Origin: Verrucomicrobiota bacterium
Lineage (GTDB): Bacteria; Verrucomicrobiota; Verrucomicrobiia; Limisphaerales; VHDF01
Assembly: GCA_016871495.1 (NCBI GenBank)
Contig: VHDF01000045.1
Span: 1-34,482 of the forward strand
Length of the DNA: 34,482 nucleotides
Direction: 5' to 3'
Shown: positions 4,940 through 7,730 of the stretch, piece after piece
Position numbering within the stretch: position 1 is the first letter of the stretch
How the letters are laid out: every line of letters begins with the position of its first letter
Program-made: the position numbers and the translations under genes
Notes under the pieces: generated by a model
The model's database searches: none
Seen by the model: only the letters and a program-made list of their open reading frames with translations
What the model was told of the DNA's origin: nothing

Positions 4940-5968
4940 TCACCGAACTGAACTGAGGGCGGGACGGAAGCCTAGGTCGTTGTCCCGGTCGGCCGAGCGC
5001 GCGTTCCTGGCGCCGGCGCGCCAACTGCCCCCGCGGCCCACGCGGTTGGAGCCCGAACTGGGACCTGTCGGGTCCGTTACGCTCCTGGTCGGGTAGTCGC
5101 CATACCAGTCCGAACACCACTCCCAGACATTGCCAATCATGTCGTGCAACCCCCATGCGTTCGGGGCCTTCTGCTTCACGGGTCGCGTCTGATTTCCAGA
5201 GTTGCCATCATACCACGCGATCGCGTTCAACTCCCCATGCCGCGCTCCCGTTGTCCCAGCCCGCGCCGCATACTCCCACTCCGCCTCCGTCGGCAACCGC
5301 CACTCCCACCCCTCCGGCAAGATCCTTTCAGCCCGTTGCTTCGTCGTCAGCTCCCGGCAGTACTCCACCGCTTCACTCCAACTCACCTGCTCCACGGGTC
5401 GATCGACACCTTTGAAATTCGACGGGTTGCCTCCCATCACGGCCTCCCACTGCCCTTGCGTACATTCCGTCTCCGCCAGGAAGAAACCACGGGTCAATAC
5501 CACCTCGTGCTCCTCCTCACTTGGATATCGATCTGCTTCGCTCGATGGGCTACCCATCGTAAATCGGCCACTAGGGACCCATCGCACCGCTAATCCTAAA
5601 ACTGACCGTTCGCCTGCTTCTGCCCGAAAGGCTCCCCCACTCCCCATCCGGGCTCTCACCGCCTCGGCCTTAGCTTTCGCCCATGTGGCCCAAAGCTGAA
5701 ATAAGAATCCGAGAACAATCAATCCCAGCGCAAGCCTCGACATGCAGAGGTATCTCGCTCGGGTCTTCCGAACGCGCTCATTGTGCTGGGCGACTGTGCG
5801 ACCGTCCGACAGCGGTGTGCCGTCCTCCAGACCTGGAGCGGCCCCCTCCTCGTGTGTGGGCTGCGGAAACCCATAGAAGAACACCTGTATCACGCCTACG
5901 ATGTTCAGAACTAGACCGATGGTGTTGAGCGTTTGTGTGGTCATATCGTGGAGAGTCCCCAAGCTCAT
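4940..5968 (-). CDS. Membrane-anchored FGE-sulfatase-like (SUMF1) protein, likely DGR variable protein
   Basis: 342 residues. The first ~105 form a membrane module: hydrophobic helices at about 15-34 and 76-95 flank a charged segment (EDGTPLSDGRTVAQHNERV). This module occurs elsewhere as a separate small protein, so here it appears fused. Residues ~125-342 are a formylglycine-generating-enzyme/C-type-lectin fold with its usual blocks: VPSGRFTMGS, VEQVSWSEAVEYC, WRLPTEAEWEYAARAG, GLHDMIGNVWEWCSDWYGDY and GRGGSW. The end (RAGARNARSADRDNDLGFRPALSSVR) is the format of DGR variable regions, in which Asn-rich templates are altered at adenines. Start could also be the ATG at 5944 (MTTQTLN). The gene lies on the cassette side of the integron, but no clear attC follows it. 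Real sulfatase-maturation activity is unlikely to be its role; ligand binding is more likely. Confidence 0.82.
   Translation of the reverse strand: MSLGTLHDMTTQTLNTIGLVLNIVGVIQVFFYGFPQPTHEEGAAPGLEDGTPLSDGRTVAQHNERVRKTRARYLCMSRLALGLIVLGFLFQLWATWAKAKAEAVRARMGSGGAFRAEAGERSVLGLAVRWVPSGRFTMGSPSSEADRYPSEEEHEVVLTRGFFLAETECTQGQWEAVMGGNPSNFKGVDRPVEQVSWSEAVEYCRELTTKQRAERILPEGWEWRLPTEAEWEYAARAGTTGARHGELNAIAWYDGNSGNQTRPVKQKAPNAWGLHDMIGNVWEWCSDWYGDYPTRSVTDPTGPSSGSNRVGRGGSWRAGARNARSADRDNDLGFRPALSSVR
4943..5040 (-). other. Candidate DGR variable region (VR)
   Basis: The 3' end of the FGE-like gene contains GRGGSW, then variable codons, then the fixed block LGFRPALSSV. Codons such as GAC CGG GAC AAC GAC are what A-to-G change of an AAC-rich template would give, and the last codon is CGG where related proteins, as I recall them, have CAG. 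No template repeat was seen in the window, so mutagenesis is inferred from the codon pattern alone. Confidence 0.4.
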
Positions 5969-6012
5969 CGCCTGGTGAGGCGTCTAGTGTGCTGCGACCA
6001 GAAGGGCAAGTG

Positions 6013-6207
6013 TCACCGAATGAGTGAAGCAAGCAAATTGCCTGTGCCAACCTCGTGACCGACAGAGTTGTAGGTCTTGTTGCTGCTGGGTCGGTATTCT
6101 CCAACTTTGTGTCCGACTGCGTTGTAGGCAATCTGAACTCCGTTTGATTCAGTTCGGATGGAGCCAATCTTGTGGCCGACATTATTCTTGAGGATTTGTT
6201 CTGACAT
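6013..6207 (-). CDS. Cassette 2: 64-residue triple-repeat protein
   Basis: A 64-residue protein made mostly of three related units: NNVGHKIG (8-15), YNAVGHKVG (28-36) and YNSVGHEVG (46-54), spaced 18-21 residues apart. The alternating pattern suggests short beta-hairpins. No signal peptide or membrane segment. The ATG lies 47 bases inside the point where cassette DNA would begin after attC at 6249-6341, typical spacing for a cassette gene. Cassettes commonly carry small uncharacterised proteins of this sort. No function can be given. A second attC would be expected after the stop, but only degenerate sequence (ACTAGAC near 5981) is visible. Confidence 0.6.
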   Translation of the reverse strand: MSEQILKNNVGHKIGSIRTESNGVQIAYNAVGHKVGEYRPSSNKTYNSVGHEVGTGNLLASLIR

Positions 6208-6248
6208 GCGGTTTTGATGTTGTTTGTTTTTGCTGCGTGCGTCGAGCG

Positions 6249-6341
6249 GCCTAACGACCCAAGCTCAGCGACCCGGCCCGCGGGACGCGTGGATTGCAAC
6301 CGGGACGCGATGGCCGGGTTCGCTGCAGCGCATGGTTAGGC
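6249..6341 (-). other. attC: Integron attC recombination site
   Basis: Read on the minus strand, the site starts with R'' GCCTAAC (6341-6335) and ends with R' GTTAGGC (6255-6249), 93 bp in all. The inner arms pair as GCTGCAGCGAACCCGGCC against GCTCAGCGACCCGGCC, leaving two unpaired bases on one side. That is the known attC signature: folded single-strand hairpin with extrahelical bases. Recombination would cut between G and TTAGGC. It separates cassette 1 (6255-6840) from cassette 2. Confidence 0.85.
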
Positions 6342-6342
6342 A

Positions 6343-6798
6343 TCATTTCAGATACCGGACAACGGCCACTTGCTTCTGTGCAAGAGTGTGAACTGTTGTG
6401 TGGGCGTTGCCTTGGTATGTCGTGTATGGGCCACGGGTAGTCGCGTAGCCGCTGCCGGACGTGTGAGCGCCTGCAATCTGGCTCGCAGAGGAAATGAAAA
6501 TGATGGCGTCTCCGCCTCACTTCTTCGCCTCTGCTACAATCGCGGACTCCGAGATTGAATTGTTCATGGAGCGCGCAAGCAGGTTGGCGTTGTTCTGAAT
6601 CATCTCCTGCTGGATGAATCCGATAATCTCGAACTTGCGGTCTGGCTCGCCGATGTCCCAGATGTCTATGCCTTTGACGTTGCGGACGCTGCCGCCTTTG
6701 CCTTCGACTACGCCCTGTCCGGGAAACTCAACGAAGCGAGTTGAGGTGCAGCCGACGAGTAGCGTGATGGCTAACGCGAGGAGTGCTTTGGTTTTCAT
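6343..6798 (-). pseudogene. Cassette 1: lipoprotein gene with in-frame TGA
   Basis: The gene starts at ATG 6798, 42 bases inside the cassette. It has a lipoprotein signal (MKTKALLALAITLLVGC, lipobox LVGC, Cys 17). The open frame stops at TGA 6517-6519 after 93 residues (ending ESAIVAEAKK). The same frame then resumes with GGDAIIFISSASQ and runs 57 more residues to a TGA at 6343-6345, two bases before R'' of attC. The second half clearly continues the first, since AKK-x-GGDAI is the natural continuation in this kind of small outer-membrane or periplasmic lipoprotein. The product would be about 151 residues if intact. Most likely a nonsense mutation (for example from CGA); read-through is possible but unsupported. 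Function unknown. Confidence 0.75.
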
Positions 6799-6834
6799 GG
6801 TCTTGTTGGGTTTGTGCTCGTGTGCGCTGATGAT

Positions 6835-6922
6835 GCCTAACAGTTATGTGAGCCGCTAAAAGGCGGTACTATTGGATATTGGAGGGGGGTCAGATGTTGG
6901 ATTCTTCTTGCCCATTGCATGA
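6835..6922 (-). promoter_or_regulatory. attI: attI-like junction and intI upstream region
   Basis: GTTAGGC (minus strand, 6841-6835) marks the attI x attC junction at the start of cassette 1. It matches R'' of that cassette's attC exactly. The 81 bases between this junction and the integrase ATG should hold the rest of attI and the divergent promoters, but no promoter could be chosen with confidence. Confidence 0.6.
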
Positions 6923-7507
6923 TTGATATACAAGCATTTACACATGCTTTTGCCATGGAAAAAGCAGAAAACAGACACCGCTCGTCCACGAGTCCCACCC
7001 AGTGGATCCCTTTTTCTTCCAAACCCCAAGCTCCGGCTGCGCGAACAACTGCGTGAAGTCATGCGATTCCATCACTACGCGATTCGCACCGAAGCGACCT
7101 ACTGGTTCTGGATTCGCCGGTTCATCTTCTTCCATAACAAGCGGCATCCCAAGGAGATGGGGCCCGCCGAGGTGCATTCGTTTCTCACTCATTTGGCCGC
7201 CCGCGAGAACGTCGCCGCTTCCACTCAGAACCAGGCTCTCAATGCGCTGGTCTTTCTCTACGGGCACGTCCTGCTGAAGCCATTGGGCTTGCTGGATGAA
7301 ATCCCCCGCCCCCAGCGTCCGGTCAAACTCCCCGTCGTCCTTACGGCGGAGGAGGTTAAGCGGGTGCTGGCCGTGGTCACGGAGAAACTCGCCCTGCCGC
7401 TGCGCCTGCTCTACGGCACCGGAATGCGGGTCATGGAAGGGGTGCGACTGCGCGTGAAGGATGTTGATTTCGGGGCGGGCCAGATCGTGGTCCGTGATGG
7501 CAAAGGC
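6923..7507 (+). pseudogene. intI: Integron integrase IntI, C-terminally truncated
   Basis: About 195 residues match the N-terminal core of IntI tyrosine recombinases: an N-terminal SAM-like DNA-binding domain (LREQLREVMRFHHYAIRTE, RRFIFFHNKRHP, NVAASTQNQALNALVFLY) and the start of the catalytic domain (LPVVLTAEEVKRVL, LLYGTGMRVMEG with catalytic Arg 169, LRLRVKDVDFGAGQIVVRDGKG). At GKG, where GKDRV would follow, homology ends. The frame continues to 7651 with unrelated sequence. The IntI-specific domain and the Lys, HxxR, His/Trp and Tyr catalytic residues are all lost, so the enzyme must be inactive. It is divergent from the cassettes, as in known integrons. IS91-linked integrases have similar N-termini, but the attC and junction sites favour IntI. 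Confidence 0.8.
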
Positions 7508-7508
7508 T

Positions 7509-7730
7509 TCCGTCGCCAACATCCGTTCCTGGAAACATTCGGGCTTCAGCGTGGACCAGAGCGTGCGCTTGGAGGCGGGCGACCGCGCGGGAATCCAGCG
7601 CCTCATCCAGTATTTCTTGCGCTGTCCCTTTTCGCAGGCGCGCATGATTGAGGTGACCGAGGCGGGCAAGGTGCTCTACAAGACCGGGGACAATCGGTTG
7701 GGGCGATTCCCCGAAGCCGCCAGCGACAAA
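7509..7730 (+). mobile_element. IS91-family transposase fragment
   Basis: In the frame beginning at 7461, residues from SVANIRSWKHSGFSVDQSV through GIQRLIQYFLRCPFSQARM, VTEAGKVLYKTG and GRFPEAASDK match the middle of IS91-type (Y2, HUH) transposases. Only about 74 residues survive; the catalytic regions on either side are missing. The left joint abuts the truncated integrase (7507/7509) and the right joint abuts the SUMF1 pseudogene (about 7720-7730), so this is deletion scar, not a functional element. Confidence 0.65.

Follow-up and report, generated by a model that had tools for sequence, protein, structure and literature searches.

An in-frame TGA in the first integron cassette of a Verrucomicrobiota contig: probable recent inactivation of a small lipoprotein gene

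The window analysed here, a stretch of 34,482 nucleotides at the start of contig VHDF01000045.1 of a Verrucomicrobiota bacterium, contains a predicted lipoprotein gene which is interrupted by a TGA and whose frame continues up to the attC site of an integron cassette. The question is whether this is a gene broken by a nonsense mutation, a gene read through its stop, an error in the consensus sequence or a short gene followed by a frame open by chance. The complete frame is on the minus strand, from 6798 down to 6343, and comprises 151 positions (93+1+57). The N-terminal part (6517..6798, minus strand) has 93 codons, begins with a signal peptide and the lipobox LVGC (MKTKALLALAITLLVGC), the lipobox being recognised by eye, and stops at TGA 6519-6517, which occupies codon 94. 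The continuation (6343..6516, minus strand) reads GGDAIIFISSASQIAG...VVRYLK over 57 codons and ends at a second TGA (6345-6343). The only cysteine of the protein is that of the lipobox. The in-frame TGA and its 57-residue continuation had been reported in the first-pass annotation, and both are borne out, with coordinates and strand correct for a minus-strand gene. No second lesion was seen in the 453 nt of the joined gene.

That the frame is open says little. In this GC-rich DNA, when the bases of the tail were shuffled, the frame was also open in 2903 of 20000 cases, and fifteen window genes picked by eye have from 2 to 304 open codons past their own stop. Openness of the 57 codons was dropped as evidence because it is so frequent by chance, and it is homology that lifts the observation above chance. 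Codon usage ranks the tail frame best of the six, weakly (+0.01 bits per codon versus -0.20 to -0.71), with +0.26 for the head.

Relatives were searched with the joined 151-residue product, carrying an X at the position of the stop. In the order, one of the 96 other genomes gave a relative, a weak one (2/97 with a match, own genome included), and in the phylum seven genomes besides its own had a match (8/387, own included). In the phylum search, the stop-free locus L005 matches residues 11-150 of the query at E 1.1e-20, and the 57-residue tail alone matches L005 at E 7.3e-7 among the 493 ORFs of the fetched loci. Profile A1, an alignment of nine sequences, found many more relatives than the few of the single-sequence phylum search, with matches in 37 of the 320 order genomes and 50 of the 384 class genomes searched; both counts contain the own genome, and the two sets overlap. 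One of the seven phylum matches, L011 (joined product E 0.0078, tail alone E 0.0017), was judged by eye to be probably unrelated, having the look of a long membrane protein, and does not enter the counts of relatives given below. Plasmid and phage tblastn with the lipoprotein gave no match, searches of genome contigs and viral contigs with the single protein gave no relative, and no second copy of the gene was found in its own genome. Neither the joined product nor the alignment had a significant match in Pfam, NCBIfam or PDB.

The window copy resembles an unnamed family of lipoproteins in its own phylum (L005, L065, L006-L010 and others; the N-terminal part is itself homologous to L005-L010 and others), with which it shares the lipobox, a variable C-terminus and the motifs GIDIW..G.P.RP.KIIG and AKK.GADAII, and from which it differs in its in-frame TGA. 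The conserved stretch GIDIWD.GEPD.K.EIIG is followed by a predicted helix (..IVAEAKK), a predicted strand (GGDAIIFIS) and the variable C-terminus. Single-sequence structure prediction has a mean pLDDT of 44, so that the order of helix 84-93 and strand 98-102 is a weak hint, and the placing of the TGA between these two predicted elements deserves low trust. As a guess, the full-length product may be a lipoprotein anchored in the membrane, with a single small alpha/beta domain. In one family of the class (L006, L007, L012-L016 and genomes G731, G735 and G742) lipoprotein genes stand in neighbouring pairs, and there are up to nine matches per genome.

In a MAFFT alignment all of 22 distinct relatives continue past the site of the TGA, by 43-217 residues. 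The counter-evidence named by the first-pass annotation, homologues that stop at AEAKK, was looked for and found in none of these 22. For the site itself a larger set was used, consisting of 76 loci with 105 hit domains and 83 distinct segments, 82 of which cover the column; it was drawn from the family's loci among the matches that were kept, with L011, the loci of the own genome and one plasmid-free set of them set aside. All 82 carry a sense residue (M 23, R 13, K 12, H 9, Q 8, N 6, I 3, L 3, A 2, Y 2, V 1) and in none is it a cysteine; judged from these aligned residues, codon 94 is a variable position in the relatives. In the following column, 61 of the 83 segments have G. Among the rows of the phylum, order and class searches an in-frame TGA occurs only in the window copy, and four other rows carry different stops (TAA in G631, G744 and G784, TAG in G832).

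With 53% identity over 146 residues, L065 (genome G631, same order) is the closest relative, and identity is similar on both sides of the site (45/87 before, 32/57 after). Codon comparison with L065 gives pN 0.291 and pS 0.884 for the head and pN 0.274 and pS 0.692 for the tail, with bootstrap pN/pS of 0.24-0.44 and 0.26-0.54, respectively; differences at the three codon positions number 27, 24 and 60 in the head and 19, 13 and 33 in the tail. Relaxed constraint after the lesion was not found in this comparison, as would also be the case for a young lesion. Since synonymous change is near saturation, constraint is demonstrated for most of the divergence and not for present-day translation of the tail; the tail being conserved like the head, the mutation is young relative to the divergence from L065. 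Since the relatives run through the site, none of those aligned stops at AEAKK and the tail is conserved as the head is, the true C-terminal part of the gene is encoded by the 57 codons. L065 (1507-2013) has a sense codon at the site of the window's TGA and its own TAA two codons past the lipobox cysteine (GCV*); it is a second stop-broken copy of the family, also from a draft genome, so that the two nearest copies are broken at different places.

The gene lies in gene cassette 1 (6255..6840, minus strand), which extends from the recombination point of one GTTAGGC core to that of another (6841-6835 and 6255-6249), the former (6835..6841, minus strand) being the core on the attI side of the array. 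The attC of the cassette (6249..6341, minus strand) has R'' at 6341-6335 (GCCTAAC) and R' at 6255-6249, and on the opposite, plus strand it forms a hairpin, closed by R''/R', of -27.3 kcal/mol (z -2.99); at this similarity the site is a single copy in the genome. A terminal inverted repeat of 12 nt is found at 6335-6346 and 6830-6841. The first-pass annotation had noted that the frame ends beside R'' of attC, which holds, and had put the gap at two bases, which has to be amended to one. As in integron gene cassettes with an attC (59-be), a single ORF in array orientation ends at an attC with R''/R', the cassette is in first position, adjoining a GTTAGGC core and a divergent intI, and the recognised features of a cassette are present: a folding attC, GTTRRRY cores at both ends and an adjacent integron integrase gene. 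In contrast to such cassettes, the ORF is interrupted by one stop and the intI is truncated. A promoter scan of 6200-7300 found no sigma-70-like promoter. Downstream is a second cassette ORF of 64 codons (6013..6207, minus strand), with relatives on Caballeronia and Paraburkholderia plasmids (43-46% identity) and a repeated N.VGHKVG-like motif; the attC of this second cassette seems truncated, only an L'-like stretch being repeated (5958-5970 versus 6258-6270). Another frame of the first attC (6249-6341, minus strand) gives the peptide NHALQRTRPSRPGCN..., which probably occurs in related bacteria as a spurious protein end.

The integron integrase gene intI is represented by its N-terminal half (6944..7513, plus strand, from ATG 6944). 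Its TIGR02249 match (7043-7513) covers positions 3-159 of 315 and scores 205.5 bits against a cut-off of 265. It is joined, in another frame (6944-7709, plus strand), to a fragment of a Y2 (IS91-like) transposase gene (7524..7709, plus strand; PF04986, E 1.8e-5, positions 85-141 of 183). With its neighbouring integrase truncated the array would be unable to mobilise itself. An intact IntI is encoded elsewhere in the genome (C28:52576-53517, 455.3 bits); it shares 60% identity with the broken copy over 168 residues and could act in trans. This second, intact integrase gene is situated close to the end of its contig (L061, 6571-8433), and the 236-residue ORF that comes next is maybe its first cassette. 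Decay of integron loci is familiar, since nearly one third of intI genes are called pseudogenes in an excerpt of PMC2426708.

In this genome TGA is an ordinary stop: 11 of the 15 hand-picked window genes end in TGA and the RF2 gene (prfB) is present above its cut-off. Together with a tRNA-Trp found with anticodon CCA, this led to rejection of a reassigned genetic code in which TGA is a sense codon. The genome also contains SelB (255.8 bits, cut-off 242.25), a tRNA-Sec with a TCA anticodon (60.9 bits), an ORF adjoining selB that by eye is SelA-like, and the alpha subunit of a formate dehydrogenase (FdhA), whose gene has a single in-frame TGA at SRA*HSPTV. Elsewhere, then, this genome reads TGA as selenocysteine; the same reading of the cassette TGA is biochemically possible and was tested for that reason. 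A full-looking selenocysteine system with a Sec-type formate dehydrogenase is present at L027, L034 and L044.

The bSECIS constraints quoted from part of PMC13188914 include loops of 3-9 nt; our script allowed 3-14 nt, wider than that, and set no energy limit. Under this loose rule the cassette has a candidate element, a 7-bp hairpin 34 nt past the TGA with a 6-nt loop, GCCAGA, starting with G. The same rule picks out 328 of 600 TGAs sampled from the 965 that the window has in all frames of both strands, and 5 of the 11 at gene ends. A stricter loop rule that we set up retains FdhA and not the cassette, along with 123 of the 600 background and 2 of the 11 gene-end TGAs; the loop GCCAGA is without the G[G/U] pattern, the element of the genome's own FdhA folding with the loop GUCUGG. 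Near the TGA, one stretch of 50 nt (z -2.07) and one of 20 nt (z -4.26) have a low folding energy, the latter being a 7-bp stem that includes the TGA and is largely the GGDA coding stretch itself; the energy is not low in 42, 60 and 76 nt (z -0.38, -1.29 and -1.36). Rfam reports only a tRNA in the whole window, and with loose limits over 6250-6850 only chance-level matches.

The TGA may be a very recent mutation, a consensus error or a codon that is read through. The feature is probably a small gene for an exported lipoprotein that the integron took up as its first cassette and of which this copy was inactivated in the recent past, and the single nonsense codon in an otherwise intact gene suggested by the first-pass annotation is well supported by the sense residues of the relatives, the equal conservation of head and tail and the lack of a second lesion. 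Intact, the gene would encode about 151 residues with signal peptide and lipobox; termination at codon 94 would release a lipoprotein of 93 residues without the last 57, which would probably be unfolded or non-functional. As in other bacterial nonsense pseudogenes, longer relatives run through the site and there is one in-frame stop and no other lesion; unlike them, the tail is without detectable relaxation, so that the lesion is either very young or not real. We infer that the TGA is truly in the organism, that translation terminates there and that function is lost. What weighs against this explanation is that a functional gene with read-through would likewise show only one lesion in the joined sequence and a fully constrained tail, and that the genome is able to read TGA as selenocysteine. 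That the stop is an error of sequencing, assembly or strain mixture and the gene intact in the organism we consider unlikely, single-base errors being rare in a high-coverage consensus; the genome is, on the other side, an assembly of 201 contigs, apart from the stop the frame and its protein are flawless and constrained, and there is no second genomic copy by which the base could be confirmed. The independent TAA of L065 makes real loss in this family plausible, even though that genome is a draft too. A functional 93-residue protein with a frame past the TGA open by chance, which the shuffles would allow, is highly improbable: the tail matches L005, 32 of its 57 residues are identical in L065 and no aligned relative ends near AEAKK, so that on these alignments a chance origin of the tail frame is refuted.

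Read-through of the TGA, the other possibility raised by the first-pass annotation, found no positive support, given an ordinary stop codon, a failed test for Cys homologues and a SECIS test that adds nothing. Leaky reading by a near-cognate tRNA, yielding enough full-length protein to keep the tail selected, would account for a tail as constrained as the head, and the TGA is directly followed by GGCGG; in the cited portion of PMC11126739, E. coli reporters leak most at TGA among the stops, read-through of up to 14% being quoted there, and a G after the stop reduces termination efficiency. A young mutation explains the same constraint, however, and no relative in the phylum, order or class rows has the TGA, so that such leakiness is quite improbable. 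A 151-residue selenoprotein appears more improbable still, even in a genome with SelB, tRNA-Sec, a SelA-like ORF and an FdhA with an in-frame TGA and with a hairpin within the bSECIS rule. Like the gene of FdhA, the cassette gene has an in-frame TGA and its host possesses Sec machinery; in distinction to bacterial selenoproteins it has no second cysteine, a hairpin no better than background, no relative with an in-frame TGA in the phylum, order and class rows, and none with a cysteine at the site among the 82 that cover it. This absence of cysteine from the relatives speaks most clearly against selenocysteine. Cys homologues are demanded for selenoprotein candidates in the extract seen of PMC1088965, where single cases are kept as mere candidates since sequencing error can create a TGA, and are given as the rule for selenoproteins in passages of PMC1794560 and PMC12013277. 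Useful read-through by either route, by which one cassette gene would give lipoproteins of 93 and 151 residues in a Sec-decoding bacterium, has a very small probability in our view.

We know of no cassette-borne recoded gene, and what is found here is most likely ordinary loss by nonsense mutation and not a new way of reading a stop codon. The locus is a reminder that in genomes which decode selenocysteine the test for Cys homologues is needed before an in-frame TGA is called recoding, and it brings up a lipoprotein family which is widespread in the phylum and unnamed. If the stop is real, the gene would be a small, clean example of an integron cassette gene just inactivated, beside a truncated integrase.
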